A program made the translations under genes and the position numbers. 8,938 nt of DNA from CAVPRW01 sp046727435 [NCBI: bacterium]. GTDB lineage: Bacteria > Tectomicrobia > Entotheonellia > J063. How positions within the stretch are numbered: the first letter of the stretch is position 1; the number at the start of each line of letters is the position of its first letter. The stretch spans positions 1 through 8,938 of the forward strand of contig JBKPCR010000221.1 in NCBI GenBank assembly GCA_046727435.1, written 5' to 3'. Positions 2,395 through 8,802 of this stretch are shown here, piece by piece. The notes beneath the pieces are model-generated. The model was not told where the DNA came from. It worked only from the letters and a program-made list of their open reading frames with translations, and searched no databases.

Positions 2395-3501
2395 ATGATG
2401 TCGATGCGTCAGTATTGGCTGGATCTGTTTACGGGGGCCACCTGGCAAGAGTTCCTCGAGGCCGGCGGAGACATCTCCGGGTTCCGCGAACGACGGTGGA
2501 AGATCGTCCAACAAATCAAGCCTGGCGATTACCTCCTGTGCTACCTCACCGGCGTCTCCCGATGGATCGGCGTGTTGGAAGTGGTCTCGTCCCCCGTCAA
2601 GGATACTAGCCCGATCTGGAAGGATGAAGTGTTTCCCTGCCGGGTACATGTGAAGACCGTGATTACACTCACCCCAGAAACCGCGGTCCCGGTCCTTGAT
2701 CTCCAAGAGCAGCTGACGATCTTTCATCATCTGAAAAGTCCTCTGGCATGGACCGGTCACTTTCGCGGGTCGCCCATGAAATGGAAACCCACCGATGGTG
2801 AGGTCGTCGTTGAGGCGCTCCGCGAGGCGCACAAGCATCCGGTGGTGCGGCCGGTGAGTGCCGCCAAGTTGGCACGGCGACCTCGGGCATTGAACGCTCG
2901 TGTGGGCTCTGTCACCGTTCCCGAGGGCGAGGATGCGCTCGACGGCGAGCTTCAAGCCAGTCAAGTTCCCACCGCACACACCGAGATCCAATGGCTGCTC
3001 CTGAAGTTGGGTCACGAGATGGGATTTGATGTGTGGGTAGCGCGCAATGACCGGAGTCGTGGGGTGGCGGGCCACCAGTTTACGGAGTTGCCCCGCTTGA
3101 AATCTGAACTGCCCCTGCAGTTCGACGACGCCACCAACCGGACCATTGAGCTCATCGATGTCCTTTGGCTGAAGGGCCATGCCATTGTGGCGGCGTTTGA
3201 GATCGAAAGCACCACCTCCATTTACTCAGGGCTGCTCCGCATGTCTGATTTGATTGCCATGCAGCCGAATCTGAATATCCCGCTCTTTCTCGTGGCCCCA
3301 GATGAACGCCGGGAGAGGGTGCTTGTCGAGGTGAACCGCCCAACGTTTACTCGCTTGTCACCACCGTTGGCCGAGGTGTGCCGCTACATCGCCTTTTCTG
3401 CCCTGCGTGAGCGACTGAGCCAAGTGGCGCCGTTCGTGCGCTACCTGAAGCCGGACTTTCTGGACGACCTCTCGGAATCGTGTGAGATCGAAGACGCCTG
3501 A
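2395..3501 (+). CDS. EVE-domain protein with C-terminal PD-(D/E)xK nuclease-like domain
   Basis: Of 368 aa, residues about 5-145 look like an EVE domain (PUA/YTH-like fold): YWLDLFTGATW, then a loop to IKPGDYLLCYLTGVSRWIGV (41-60) and LEVVSSP. Such domains bind modified bases in DNA or RNA and are often joined to restriction or regulatory modules. After a variable linker (150-190), residues 195-320 hold a compact alpha/beta core: E197 in a helix, IDVLWL with D255, then AAFEIESTTSIYSGLLRMSD with E269 and E271, fitting a PD-(D/E)xK-like nuclease in which the usual Lys is replaced. I infer a modification-dependent (type IV-like) nuclease or DNA-defence factor; neither activity is proven. GAGG at 2386-2389 fits starts at 2395, 2398 or 2404, and the domain itself begins at the third Met. 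No partner gene is adjacent. It converges with the dioxygenase gene, 15 bp away. Confidence 0.75.
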   Translation: MMSMRQYWLDLFTGATWQEFLEAGGDISGFRERRWKIVQQIKPGDYLLCYLTGVSRWIGVLEVVSSPVKDTSPIWKDEVFPCRVHVKTVITLTPETAVPVLDLQEQLTIFHHLKSPLAWTGHFRGSPMKWKPTDGEVVVEALREAHKHPVVRPVSAAKLARRPRALNARVGSVTVPEGEDALDGELQASQVPTAHTEIQWLLLKLGHEMGFDVWVARNDRSRGVAGHQFTELPRLKSELPLQFDDATNRTIELIDVLWLKGHAIVAAFEIESTTSIYSGLLRMSDLIAMQPNLNIPLFLVAPDERRERVLVEVNRPTFTRLSPPLAEVCRYIAFSALRERLSQVAPFVRYLKPDFLDDLSESCEIEDA

Positions 3502-3516: not shown

Positions 3517-4527
3517 TCAAGCGGGATCGCGCTGGACCGCGGCATTATAATTGGCATCGTACCACCAGCGTAGGTACTGCTCGTAGGTGATGGGTGGAAA
3601 CTTCGGTGGGTTCTCCGGCCCTTGGCAAGTCGGCAGACAGGCAATCATGGTGTCGATCTGGGGTCCCAGGAAAAAGGGGATGGCGTAGCGGTGCCTGCCA
3701 ACGGGTGGCAGGGCGCGATGCGGGGTGGATTTGAATCGACCATTGGTCCAGCGGTACATCATGTCCCCCGCATTCACGGCAAACGATCCTGGGGTATAGG
3801 GCACCTCGAGCCAGGTGCCAGACGGCATCCGGACCTGCAGGCCCGGCACGTCGGTTTGGGCCAGCAAGGTCAGGAAGTTGGCGTCGGTATGGGGGGCAAT
3901 GCCGAACTGGTTGACCTCGGCCGGCACCGGGGGGTAGTGGGACAGGCGGAACGAAAACTGGCTGTCGGCAAAGGCACGGTCGAAGTATCCCGGCGACAGG
4001 TCAAGCGCCACCGCACAGACCGGGAGCATCCGGCGCGCCAGTGCATCTACGGCCGCGGTATAGTCCAGGACCGTCTCGCGAAACCCCGGCAGGCGGTCGG
4101 GCCATTGGTTCGGCCCCACAAAACGCCGTCCCGACCGGAGCAGCGGGTCGTCCGGCCGGCGCTCGCGTTTGACGAAAAAGGCTTCGTTCAGGTCGGGTTT
4201 ATCGTTCGCGTTGACCTCCGAGGTCCAGACGGCGTACTGGCCCATCGCCATGTAGCCGTTGTTGTGCTCGTTCATCCGCAGCGCCATCTTCGCCTCCAAG
4301 GGCTGATCGTGAAACCGCTTGGCCTCCGCAAAGGTGCGATCGATCAACGCTTGTGCGATCCCATGATTGATGATGGTGAAGAAGCCAATCGTTTCCAGGG
4401 CGTCGCGCAAGGCCGCCGCCGTCGCCTCGAGTGCTCCCGGCACGCCAGCAAAGTATGGCCCGAGGTCGATGACGGGGATGGTGGCATCCGGAACAGCCCG
4501 TGGTGGTAGATCGAGTGATGCGGCCAT
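3517..4527 (-). CDS. Isopenicillin-N-synthase-like 2-oxoglutarate/Fe(II) dioxygenase
   Basis: The 336-aa protein has the two parts of this family. An N-terminal DIOX_N-like region starts IPVIDLGPYF (about residues 17-26) and includes IGFFTIINHGI. A C-terminal double-stranded beta helix carries the iron triad H213 and D215 (APHTDANFLTLL) and H270 (STPHRAL). The 2-oxoglutarate-binding Arg is R280, in RYAIPFF, where Ala replaces the usual Ser of RxS. Family members use 2-oxoglutarate and O2 to hydroxylate, desaturate or cyclise small molecules in the cytoplasm; the substrate is unknown. The ATG at 4527-4525 follows GGAGGGAGG; a 17-codon upstream extension is possible but lacks such a site. The SsuD-like gene lies upstream in the same direction, hinting at oxidation of sulfonates or similar compounds, but 454 bp separate them. 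Confidence 0.85.
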   Translation of the reverse strand: MAASLDLPPRAVPDATIPVIDLGPYFAGVPGALEATAAALRDALETIGFFTIINHGIAQALIDRTFAEAKRFHDQPLEAKMALRMNEHNNGYMAMGQYAVWTSEVNANDKPDLNEAFFVKRERRPDDPLLRSGRRFVGPNQWPDRLPGFRETVLDYTAAVDALARRMLPVCAVALDLSPGYFDRAFADSQFSFRLSHYPPVPAEVNQFGIAPHTDANFLTLLAQTDVPGLQVRMPSGTWLEVPYTPGSFAVNAGDMMYRWTNGRFKSTPHRALPPVGRHRYAIPFFLGPQIDTMIACLPTCQGPENPPKFPPITYEQYLRWWYDANYNAAVQRDPA

Positions 4528-4539
4528 GGGAGGCCTCCC
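4528..4539. repeat. 12-bp perfect palindrome at the dioxygenase ribosome binding site
   Basis: GGGAGGCCTCCC lies directly before the dioxygenase ATG on the minus strand and overlaps its purine-rich ribosome binding region. It could bind a dimeric regulator or fold weakly in RNA, or be chance. Confidence 0.35.
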
Positions 4540-4981
4540 TCCGGAGCAATGGTTGGCAACAGAGATCTGGGACACCATCGTGTGGCGACTCTTGTCACCG
4601 CGGTGCCCGTGAACGCACGTCTACTCTCACCGCGTGGCGACTGGCGGACACCAATGGCCCAGTCATCGATGAGAGCTGCGTGCCGGATGGTTCGCGTGGC
4701 CACGTTCGTATGGCCTGAGAGCGCAACAGGTGCGACCCACTTCATGAGAGTCTTGGTTTCCTATACGTGACACGCAAGGGCGATCACCCTGGCATGCGTC
4801 CTTCGTTACGACGCGAGCACGATGCTGGACGAGGGAGAGGAGCCTCTGAAACGCGTTGGGCCCGATGGCGAGGCGCTCCCCCGCCCGCGACTGCCGATCG
4901 CCCTCTGCCTCGAGGGGACCTTGGCGAATCCGCTCGATCACCGCCACACCGTTGTGCCCTGGAAGAAGACACCACAACCGC
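4528..4981 (-). other. Intergenic stretch with no recognisable gene
   Basis: Several short frames are open here on both strands, but none has a convincing start, ribosome binding site or family resemblance. The longest (minus, 4663-4992) is rich in Arg and Cys and overlaps the neighbouring gene's end. The stretch must hold the promoter of the dioxygenase gene unless it is read from the monooxygenase upstream. It may be decayed coding DNA. Confidence 0.4.
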
Positions 4982-6097
4982 CTATCCCCCACCCTGGTCC
5001 ACTAGCGCTGCGGCCGTGGCCGCACGCAGCCGCGGCACGATCTCCTGGCTCACGCGTCTGCACTCCTCCAGGTGGGGGAACCCTGACAGAATGAACTCAT
5101 CGATACCGAGACGCCAGTAGGCGAGGATCTCGTCGGTCACCTGCTGCGGCGTGCCGACAATGGCGGTCCCACAGTTGACCCGGACCGTGGACAGGCCATT
5201 CCAGAGATGGGCGCCGATCCGATGCTGGGCCACATGTCGCGCTTGGGCCTGCGGTCCCACCATCGGCGTGCCGACCATCACGGCCTGGCGCTGCTGCACA
5301 ACGTGTGGATCCGCATGGGCGATCAGGCTTTCAGCCGCGGCCCAGGCGGCGTCCGGGTCGTCGCGGACCACCAGATGTGTCCGCAAACCAAACGTGAGCG
5401 TCCGACCACAGGCCTGGGCCTGCGCCGTGACCCGCTCAATCCGCGCGGCGATCGGCTCCAGTGGCTCAATCCACATCAAGTACACCTCAGCAAGCCGCGC
5501 CGCCAGAAACTCGGCACGCGGCGAGGCACCCCCTTGATAGACACGCGGTGTGGCCACGGGTGGCGGCGAGCAGCGGGCGCCGCGCAGGGTGATGGAGGTC
5601 CCGTGGAAATCGGTCAGCTCTCCCGTCCACAGGGCCCGACAGGTTCGTATCAGCTCCTCGGCCTGTTCATAGCGCCCCGCGTGGTCGAGCTCCACCCCCA
5701 AACGTTCGAAGTCTCCCGGAATCCCACCAGGCACAAGGTTAATATCCACCCGGCCATGACTGATCTGATCCAGCGTCGCGATCATCTTGGCCAGCAGTCC
5801 GGCGGCGATGAACCCCGGCCGGATGGCAATGAGGAAGCGAATCCGGCTCGTGACTGCGGCCAGGGCCGTGGCCATGGTCCAGGTCTCCGCCAGCGGCGCG
5901 CCTTCATCAAAGAGTCCGTTGACAAAGCGGGTGGGGATCAGCAATGACGAGAATCCCAGCCGCTCCGCCGTCTGCACGACCTCGCGCAAGTAGTTAACGG
6001 TCGGGGCTCGTTCCGCCTGCATGGTGCCTAAGCGAACGCCGTCCCCATCGATCGGAATACACCAGTCGAACCGCGGTTCTGGACGTGCGGCGACCAT
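4982..6097 (-). CDS. SsuD-like FMNH2-dependent monooxygenase (luciferase-like family)
   Basis: The 371-aa protein resembles alkanesulfonate monooxygenase SsuD (E. coli 381 aa), a TIM-barrel enzyme that uses reduced flavin and O2 to release sulfite from sulfonates. Matching segments are FDWCIPIDGDG, LIAIRPGF, ISHGRVDINLVPGG, FGLRTHLVVRDDPDAAW, LWNGLSTVR with GTAIVGTPQQV, and GIDEFILSGFPHLEE. Against known SsuD active-site residues, R226 and H228 correspond to R239 and H241, R297 to R306 and H333 to H342, but Y331 is F340 and no Cys lies where Cys54 is expected (PTRFVNGLFDEGAPLAETW, with a small insertion). Substrate may therefore differ from alkanesulfonates. The ATG at 6097-6095 follows GAGGAGG; 15 extra upstream codons are less likely. 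No flavin reductase or SsuABC transporter is in the window. Stop is TAG. Confidence 0.85.
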   Translation of the reverse strand: MVAARPEPRFDWCIPIDGDGVRLGTMQAERAPTVNYLREVVQTAERLGFSSLLIPTRFVNGLFDEGAPLAETWTMATALAAVTSRIRFLIAIRPGFIAAGLLAKMIATLDQISHGRVDINLVPGGIPGDFERLGVELDHAGRYEQAEELIRTCRALWTGELTDFHGTSITLRGARCSPPPVATPRVYQGGASPRAEFLAARLAEVYLMWIEPLEPIAARIERVTAQAQACGRTLTFGLRTHLVVRDDPDAAWAAAESLIAHADPHVVQQRQAVMVGTPMVGPQAQARHVAQHRIGAHLWNGLSTVRVNCGTAIVGTPQQVTDEILAYWRLGIDEFILSGFPHLEECRRVSQEIVPRLRAATAAALVDQGGG

Positions 6098-6413
6098 CGT
6101 GTGCCTCCTCGTTCCCCCGATCACCCGCTTCAAACGTGGCATGTACCCTTCTTGATATCACCCTATATTGGAGGAGCAGGTGACATATCGTATCACAAAT
6201 AGTCGGTGTTGAGACTGCACGCAAGCAGATCCCGTGGCACCTCCGTTGATCTGCGCACTGTTGCGATCGGAGGGCCACCGGGATCATGACCATGACCCGC
6301 CACGCCGAGAGAGGCATGGACGCATTGTGCCGTCTCCAGATAGATGGCCAGCGAATCCGGCTGACCCCCCTTCCAGGTCATTCACCGCAGGTGAGCGCCT
6401 CGATTCATCAGGA
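6098..6413 (-). other. Upstream region of the monooxygenase gene; possible recombinase scrap
   Basis: No intact gene is seen. The part nearest 6097 should hold the monooxygenase promoter; an imperfect palindrome sits at 6180-6196. A minus-strand frame (6381-6193) includes DSLAIYLETAQ, similar to SMAIYLETSERL at the start of the recombinase pseudogene at 7303-7670, with some matching DNA. It may be a third scrap of the same recombinase, but the match is only about ten residues. Confidence 0.35.
6180..6196. promoter_or_regulatory. Imperfect palindrome, possible operator upstream of the monooxygenase
   Basis: GTGACATATCGTATCAC has matching outer arms (GTGA/TCAC) and a partly symmetric centre, 83 bp before the ATG at 6097. 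LysR-type sites often have such T-N11-A dyads, and sulfonate genes are often LysR-controlled, but no regulator gene is in the window. Confidence 0.2.
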
Positions 6414-7187
6414 TTATCCCGGCTCTAACCGAAACTCCCCATCGTCCCCTGGCACGATCGTGTAGCGATCCCCGCTATTTGGGAGCACCTTCGTCCCCTC
6501 CTGCGTGCCCGGCCAGTAGAAGCTCACCTCGGCCGGCCTGCACTGCTGATGGGTGTGCGTCGCCTGCGGCGGCAAGGTAAACGTCTGACCATCAATCGTG
6601 TACTGAATGGCTAGGTCTGATGTGTTAGTGAGCTGAAATTCGATCTGCTGTGACGTCGGACGGCCGAACAGCTGCACCGCATAGTAAGCGCTTGTCTGGT
6701 CGCTCTGGGCCACCCCGACGCCGGTCTCCGTGACGGCCGGGTGGAGCATATTCTGCCGGTGATCGGGCGAGTGTTGCCAGTCCTCGAAGAATCCCTGGGC
6801 CAGTGCCTCCGTCGTGAATCCTGCAGGGTTCTGTTGAGAGGCGATGTTCTCGGCGATGAGGCACGCGTCATAGCCGTGCGCCTGGGCTCGTGCTTCCGGC
6901 GACTGGCCGTCGGCGGTGTGGCTGAACTAAACGGTACGGGCCATGAAGGTGGCGAAGTCTTGCGCGGTGGCAGTGAGCTGAGGGTTGACCTTTGCTGTGG
7001 GGCGGCCTTCCTGTTGGCGAAACGCATTCGTGTGACTGATGAGGCGTTCGACTACGTCCACCAGGTCGGGGGACTGGTCTCTAGTCGCCGGCGGATCGGT
7101 CGTCCTCTTCTCAGCAGCCTGCGCAGAGGGCGCCGCAGGCAGAAGAACCCATCCAAGTCCGAGAACCAGGAGCAGCCATCGGTGCAC
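6414..7187 (-). pseudogene. Secreted CAP-domain protein, interrupted by one in-frame TAG
   Basis: A GTG at 7187-7185 after GGGAGGAGG starts MHRWLLLVLGLGWVLLPAAP, a signal peptide with likely cleavage after SAQA (residue 24). A CAP/SCP domain (cysteine-rich secretory, PR-1 type) follows at about 41-165: HTNAFRQQEG, FSHTADG with H90, CLIAENIA with E113, HSPDHRQNM with H139 and H143, and YYAVQLFG. A beta-rich tail with HTHQQCRPAEV ends at TAA 6416-6414. The only fault in 257 codons is TAG at codon 87 (6929-6927), between MARTV and FSHTADG, where relatives have a sense codon, often Lys; AAG to TAG is one base. Function in bacteria is unclear, usually extracellular. It may be a fresh pseudogene, a sequencing error or a readthrough case. 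A 10-bp palindrome GGGTATACCC lies at 7225-7234 upstream. Confidence 0.8.
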
Positions 7188-7907: not shown

Positions 7908-7952
7908 CTCATAACCCAAAGGTCGCTGGTTCAAATTCAGCCCCCGCTACCA
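7908..7952 (+). other. 3' half of a tRNA-Met gene (attachment-site remnant)
   Basis: CTCATAA (7908-7914) is an anticodon loop with CAT at 7910-7912. It is followed by the 3' anticodon strand CCCAA, a 5-nt variable loop, a T arm (GCTGG, loop TTCAAAT, TCAGC), acceptor strand CCCCGCT, discriminator A and CCA ending at 7952. The bases before the loop (ATCAA) cannot pair with CCCAA, and no AGCGGGG acceptor strand or D arm lies upstream, so the 5' half is missing. Integrases often recombine at the anticodon loop or 3' end of tRNA genes and leave such half copies. The intact gene should lie at the other end of the element. Confidence 0.8.
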
Positions 7953-7955
7953 CCT

Positions 7956-8244: not shown

Positions 8245-8802
8245 ATGGCAAGCGTCTACCGCATTCGGAAGGAAGAGCGCACCTCAGGGGTGCGCTAGGT
8301 GGTCGATTACCGCGATAATACCGGGCGGCTCAGCACTCGGCGCCTTAAGCGCTCCCGCGACGCCGAGGCCTTCAAAAAAAGAGGTGGAAGCCAACACCTA
8401 CACCGGACCGCTCCCCCCGCGCCCCGTCCATGTCACGTTGGCCCAATGGGCCGAGGGGTGGTTCGCCCAGAAAAAGCCCTCTGCCGGGCCGGCAAAAAGC
8501 CGCGCCCCTCGACGCTCCAGAGCTGGTGCAGTGATCTGAAATCACTCCTGAGCGCGCTCGGCGGCTACAAGCTCCACGACCTCACGGCCGACGTGGTCAT
8601 CACGTGTGTAGAGCACCTCCAAAACACGCCGATTCCTGAGGGTCGGCGTAGCGGAGGTCAGCGTCCGCGCGATAAATCCATTCGCAATAAAGTCGGGCTC
8701 CTCTCCCAAATCCTGCGCTCGGCCAAAGCCCGGCGCATCATTCCTCTCAATCCCGTCCAGGATCTCGACTGGAAAGAACTCTTGGGTGAAGAGGAGCGTT
8801 AG
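8245..8802 (+). pseudogene. Phage/island integrase, N-terminal half, nonsense codon and frameshifts
   Basis: The ATG at 8245 with GGGAG upstream starts MASVYRIRKEERTSGVR, then TAG at 8296-8298, then VVDYRDNTGRLSTRRLKRSR. A Trp there (TGG) is what relatives would have. VVDYRDNTGR resembles the three-strand arm-binding (AP2-like) domain of lambda-type integrases. At the seven-A run (8374-8380) the frame shifts by one to EVEANTYTGPLPPRPVHVTL and AQWAEGWFAQKKPSAGPA. Between about 8485 and 8515 it shifts back to STLQSWCSDLKSLLSALGGY, the core-binding SAM-like domain, ending KELLGEEER at TAG 8800-8802. The catalytic domain with R, H and Tyr never follows; about half the protein is missing. Next to the tRNA fragment, it is likely the dead integrase of an element inserted there. 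Confidence 0.8.

Follow-up and report, generated by a model that had tools for sequence, protein, structure and literature searches.

EVE domain and PD-(D/E)XK-like core in one protein: a probable single-gene modification-dependent restriction endonuclease

The window, as we call the whole 8,938-nucleotide stretch of DNA analysed here, carries at positions 2395-3501 of the forward strand a gene for a 368-amino-acid protein, the EVE-nuclease, which we aligned with 24 relatives of the same layout. An earlier note, made from the sequence alone, had described this gene as free of stops and frameshifts, and we confirmed that the frame is intact and open across 368 codons. Direct reading of the sequence revealed a possible ribosome-binding site, GAGGT, at 2386-2390 on the same strand, 4 nt upstream of the ATG at 2395 and 7 nt upstream of the ATG at 2398, either of which is a possible start. 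A 2OG-Fe(II) oxygenase gene converges on the EVE-nuclease gene, with 15 bases between the ends of the two, which are therefore not in one operon. A stem-loop considered 3' of the EVE-nuclease gene was rejected because 153 of 200 shuffled sequences folded as well or better. Across the window, Rfam gave no match at the gathering threshold, and the repeats consisted of weak pairs only.

The oxygenase gene (3517-4578, reverse strand) and a luciferase-like monooxygenase gene (4982-6142, reverse strand) are both intact, with strong Pfam matches. The neighbours of the EVE-nuclease gene had been described as decayed, which holds for a tyrosine-integrase fragment at 1019-1333 (Pfam 8.2e-11) and for a gene with one internal stop, but not for these two downstream metabolic genes. 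The interrupted gene (6414-7187, reverse strand) is CAP/SCP-domain-like, and pieces of it weakly match Pfam CAP. Further sequence at 1912-2142 appears integrase-like by eye, without a Pfam match, and an integrase match at 8299-8802 is weak (Pfam, 0.18); together with the fragment at 1019-1333, these pieces suggest old mobile-element insertions. A tRNA-like 3' end (the GGTTCAAATTC arm), read by eye at approximately 7921-7955, is possibly an attachment-site remnant; ARAGORN found no tRNA anywhere in the window. Finally, none of the 10 window ORFs searched with Pfam matched a methyltransferase.

Sequence profiles and a structural model placed an EVE domain of the PUA superfamily (PH1033/UPF0310 type) at approximately residues 5-143 of the protein (2407-2823, forward strand). 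Pfam PF01878 matched at E=7.6e-4 with 19.9 bits, under its cut-off of 23, and NCBIfam PRK00809 at 3e-9 with 36.7 bits, far under its cut-off of 139. When the single window sequence was compared with PDB chains, the meaningful matches were UPF0310 protein MJECL36 (1.5e-5) and UPF0310 protein PH1033 (0.0042), while an EVE profile of 14 rows matched the PH1033 chain at 7.9e-15. In the model, residues 2-141 superposed on 2p5d with Z 14.8 and rmsd 2.5 over 132 aligned residues, and on PH1033 with Z 14.7, the aligned length being 130-132 residues across the two structures. YTH domains were the next folds after the PH1033 type, at Z 12.7 and lower, and the EVE-containing endonuclease VcaM4I appeared in the Foldseek list for this half at E 4.3e-4, behind PH1033-type and YTH structures. 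The N-terminal EVE-like region claimed in the earlier note was thus borne out by the modelled fold, and the N-terminal half belongs to the PH1033 type of EVE domain. Judging by conservation among the 25 same-layout proteins, W119 (24/25), F30 (24/25) and T/S13 (23/25) are candidate base-pocket residues; the base-binding pocket of the VcaM4I EVE domain is described as P24/W82/Y130 (PMC7897488). Model residues 120-123 and 125-128, which overlap the presumed base-pocket region, have pLDDT values below 50. A linker follows at residues ~144-190 (2824-2964, forward strand), with AF2 pLDDT below 50 for residues 164-190 and a partly helical stretch preceding them. The full-length model reached pLDDT 74.6 and pTM 0.48, and at this pTM the relative placement of the two domains cannot be taken as reliable.

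The C-terminal core (residues 191-342; 2965-3420, forward strand) was matched by the PADLOC model REase_II at 4.2e-16 and, modelled alone, gave pLDDT 85.2 and pTM 0.82. The modelled elements run in the order helix, strand, helix, strand (starting beside D255), strand (with E269 inside and E271 just past it), helix and strand, which fits a restriction-endonuclease-like fold with one additional helix inserted between strands one and two. The signature D...(D/E)x(K/E/Q) is present as D255 (3157-3159, forward strand), the first acidic position of the presumed active site, and the ExE motif E269-I-E271 (3199-3207, forward strand), in which the third residue is E, not K. Replacement of ExK by ExE also occurs in BamHI.

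We found no solved PDB chain related by sequence to the nuclease core, and Foldseek returned no PDB match to the C-terminal model at E<=0.001. In a second structural comparison the best match was the nickase N.BspD6I (Z 8.5, rmsd 4.1, 149 aligned), a score near the tool's stated typical best value without a clear match, with a dehydrogenase already at Z 5.9. Of the first 13 rows, twelve are nucleases or proteins of defence systems, including five BspD6I entries as well as Hna and LmuA, which we take to belong in this group; the other row, AF1548, is titled as of unknown function. Two repair endonucleases, EndoMS at Z 6.3 and 2vld at Z 6.2, were also among the matches. The D-x13-E spacing of the window protein resembles D456-x12-E469 of N.BspD6I, whose D456 is named in a PDB title. 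Taken together, the model and the sequence signature indicate that the C-terminal domain is likely a PD-(D/E)XK-like core.

The 24 relatives comprise six from genome_contigs (found by tblastn), fifteen from sampled genomes and three from IMG/VR contigs, one of the last being cut at its 5' end; the other 21 derive from genomes of several phyla. The 25 rows counted, window protein included, remained after the degenerate L062 and L075, which carries another nuclease, were dropped from a 27-row alignment. Fragments L007 and L040 and the short L054 record of the L075 gene were not counted as extra members, and loci L011-L018, which represent the eight genes already listed as L001-L008, were left out of the count. 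D255, E269 and E271 were kept in all 25 rows, as was Q199 in the first core helix (2989-2991, forward strand). In another set of 26 nuclease modules, drawn from several architectures and sharing some members with the first, D255, E269, E271 and T274 were present in 26/26 and Q199 in 25/26. The core described in the earlier note, with E197, D255, E269 and E271, held for the last three residues but not for the first. E197 is E in 10/25 rows and was rejected as a catalytic residue; H195 is present in 14/25.

The earlier suggestion that selection keeps the gene also stood up to comparison. The window protein deviated at none of the 43 columns that were invariant in the 23 rows compared, whereas the degenerate paralogue L062 deviated at 18 of the same 43. 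Pairwise dN between the window gene and ten relatives was 0.24-0.35 (NG86), while dS was 2.3 and 3.2 in two pairs and, being saturated, not computable in the other eight. We read these sequence comparisons as a sign of purifying selection on the EVE-nuclease gene. L062 itself (L062:7922-9124) is a divergent EVE-nuclease paralogue with A instead of E269 and forms a second copy in genome G407, which also has a full-motif copy, L061. The presence of ExE in place of ExK, and the possibility of motif loss that L062 illustrates, could be taken to mean that the core binds DNA or nucleotides without cutting and that the protein is a regulator. Retention of D, E and E in 26/26 modules of several architectures argues against such a role, which we consider highly improbable.

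The same nuclease module is found behind other N-termini. In L008, a nuclease 64% identical to that of the window protein (over 173 aa) is joined to an N-terminus that matches PD-T4-1 at 1.3e-20; in L033 the module lies behind a weak HARE-HTH match (0.057), and in L031 it is preceded by methyltransferase-like sequence. In the opposite arrangement, L075 has an EVE of this type (Pfam EVE 1.9e-4, below cut-off) on a different core, which by eye is PD-(D/E)XK with a DxK motif, in a region that includes Cas3 and Cse1. The N-terminus of L022 and L024 appears by eye to be another PUA-type domain, L022 being without a Pfam match. On the IMG/VR contigs L058 and L060 a D12 adenine methyltransferase (Pfam 1.9e-9 and 7.6e-9, respectively) follows immediately downstream of the module, and these adjacent genes (L058:4572-6187 and L060:4599-6224) likely represent a virus-borne restriction-modification pair. 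Taken as a whole, the predicted folds, the motif conservation and this module swapping support the description in the earlier note of a stand-alone fusion between an EVE reader and a PD-(D/E)XK-like core. N-termini of three kinds (EVE, PD-T4-1-like and HARE-HTH-like) on a common nuclease also form a natural set in which sensors can be compared on the same cutter.

Several other arrangements were observed among the relatives. At L040:591-1977, a different EVE protein (271 aa, Pfam EVE 1.5e-6), whose C-terminus is nuclease-like by eye, adjoins a nuclease module with a missing EVE half. Plasmid relatives without an EVE domain are annotated as CDS of 421-437 aa, and in two of the relatives without EVE, L009 and L010, the N-terminal stretch resembles a helix-hairpin-helix domain by eye. 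In 5 of 11 plasmid regions, counted without a control set, relatives without EVE adjoin copper or heavy-metal resistance genes; these regions (L009, L078, L079, L081 and L083) come from Cupriavidus, Enterococcus, Listeria, Komagataeibacter and Sphingomonas, and DUF2933 genes lie close by in three of the five, in two phyla. This metal-resistance setting of the relatives without EVE does not look like a defence setting.

The neighbourhoods of the relatives, which the earlier note had proposed checking for defence genes, contained recognised defence or mobile-element neighbours at part of the loci, but ordinary genes, by eye, at the others, which form the majority. L002 has as neighbours an HsdR-like protein of type I and a stand-alone protein with a weak EVE match (0.0038); L006 lies beside DarT and a macro-domain protein, and L066 beside a methyltransferase and an integrase, while a neighbour of L065 matches the PADLOC candidate PDC-M41A. 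Recombinases adjoin L074, L076 and L057, and L055 and L056 are on viral contigs; on L056 a gene that by eye resembles one for a DNA methyltransferase, without a Pfam or PADLOC match, lies 446 bp upstream. L063, in turn, lies between dnaE-like and guaA/guaB-like genes. These defence-gene matches were counted without a control set, and we claim no enrichment.

The neighbourhoods bear directly on whether the protein could be a Type II restriction enzyme that targets an unmodified sequence, with its protecting methyltransferase encoded elsewhere. PADLOC labels the module as Type II, the L058 and L060 relatives and the EVE-nuclease L066 each lie beside a methyltransferase, and the window is only part of a genome, so that a distant methyltransferase gene is conceivable. 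Nevertheless, among the 82 closest ORFs at 23 loci (120 aa or longer, two per side where present, some of them spurious), the one in L066 alone matched PADLOC methyltransferase models at 1e-5; none of the remaining 81 did so, and 23 other PADLOC families were each found in one or two of them. Moreover, the reader is an EVE domain, a type described as a modified-base binder in VcaM4I (PMC7897488). We therefore regard a Type II enzyme as distinctly unlikely.

EVE-nucleases of this layout are rare. They were found in 18 of 1,089 sampled genomes, three of which are seed genomes chosen for having one; by sample, drawn from the phyla of the four seed genomes, the counts were 2/295, 4/297, 4/246 and 8/251, with a cut-off of E<=0.001 in one search and of E<=1e-30 in three, where weaker relatives were left uncounted. 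Phyla are mixed in the tree, in which support is poor for 10 of 22 inner branches and from which L055 and L075 were left out. The planctomycete L004 and L061, a sequence from the phylum sampled for G005, form a pair (support 100/94), and this pair is nested in a set with L001 (Chloroflexota) and L005 (Myxococcota by tree label; 96/96). Because phyla are mixed in this way, the sequence tree indicates that EVE-nucleases have moved horizontally between phyla. Searches of annotated phage records gave no match to the window protein, the L058 nuclease or the L057 EVE-nuclease. In viral contigs, a closer profile and a single-sequence query matched none, while a wider nuclease profile found six loci. 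Among PLSDB plasmids no record covered 80% of either query, and hence no full-length EVE-nuclease was found there.

Such a distribution helps to weigh a role in repair or the damage response, in which the EVE domain would recognise a base that is damaged (by oxidation, for example) or carries a host-made modification, and the C-terminal domain would nick beside it. This idea draws on the nickase and the repair endonucleases among the structural matches of the core, on the many homologues that by eye sit amid housekeeping-like genes, and on the relatives without EVE, with their helix-hairpin-helix-like N-terminus (L009, L010) and metal clusters. The rare and scattered occurrence, the viral contigs, the recombinase neighbours and the exchange of the N-terminus for that of PD-T4-1 fit defence better, and we consider a repair nuclease unlikely.

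With putative reader and nuclease domains in one chain, by sequence and by fold, the reading we favour, with reasonable confidence, is that the window protein is a single-gene modification-dependent (Type IV-like) restriction endonuclease. Its probable role is defence of the cell, through cleavage of phage or plasmid DNA that carries chemical modifications. By analogy with VcaM4I, the EVE domain would flip out a modified base of the incoming DNA and take it up in its pocket, and the C-terminal domain, probably as a dimer, would cut nearby using D255, E269 and E271 with a divalent metal. Host DNA would be spared as it lacks the modification, and for this reason no partner methyltransferase would be needed.

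Going by VcaM4I, our default guess for the base is a modified cytosine. N6-methyladenine is also possible, and was considered because YTH domains, which are m6A readers, were the next-best folds. A broader proposal, which we find doubtful but worth stating, is that the PH1033-type EVE domain reads a base other than 5mC or 5hmC (N6-methyladenine, a hypermodified phage base or a damaged base) and, at the same time, that the ExE nuclease is a general cutter recombined with several sensors of DNA state, in settings from phage defence to metal-stress plasmids. As one small protein, the EVE-nuclease would offer an easy test of what PH1033-type EVE domains read.

The fusion itself has been anticipated. 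Bell, Wolf and Koonin (2020) listed EVE-PD(D/E)XK among putative Type IV enzymes and described EVE as a probable base-flipping specificity module (PMC7641849). The window protein has the same architecture and belongs to this class, whose members were predicted there to be modification-dependent restriction endonucleases; we did not see the ExE nuclease family described here, or the swapping of its sensors, singled out in that work. The literature searched, mostly outside subscription journals, yielded no biochemistry for EVE-PD(D/E)XK proteins, while an EVE-HNH enzyme has been characterised. That enzyme, VcaM4I, was tested on 5mC and 5hmC and, like the window protein, combines an N-terminal EVE reader and a C-terminal nuclease in a single chain, but its nuclease is HNH whereas that of the window protein is PD-(D/E)XK-like (PMC7897488).

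In structure, the core most resembles the cleavage domain of N.BspD6I/R.BspD6I (PDB 2ewf and 2p14, titled as a site-specific nickase and a restriction-enzyme subunit), with Z 8.5 and 8.0 at 9% and 7% identity. PD-T4-1, as its name and the selection that yielded it imply, reportedly protects against T4. It shares its N-terminal stretch with L008, the relative whose nuclease is so close to that of the window protein, and differs from the window protein in that the latter has an EVE reader. PD-T4-1 was obtained in the T4 selection by Vassallo et al. (2022; PMC9519451) and is listed with a PD(D/E)XK nuclease in Table 1 of PMC10952713. Finally, CMoRE, a single-gene GIY-YIG Type IV enzyme that cuts modified phage DNA, is likewise a single component uniting sensor and nuclease, and differs from the window protein in the type of nuclease, in its N-terminal position and in the sensor to which it is joined (PMC12923530).
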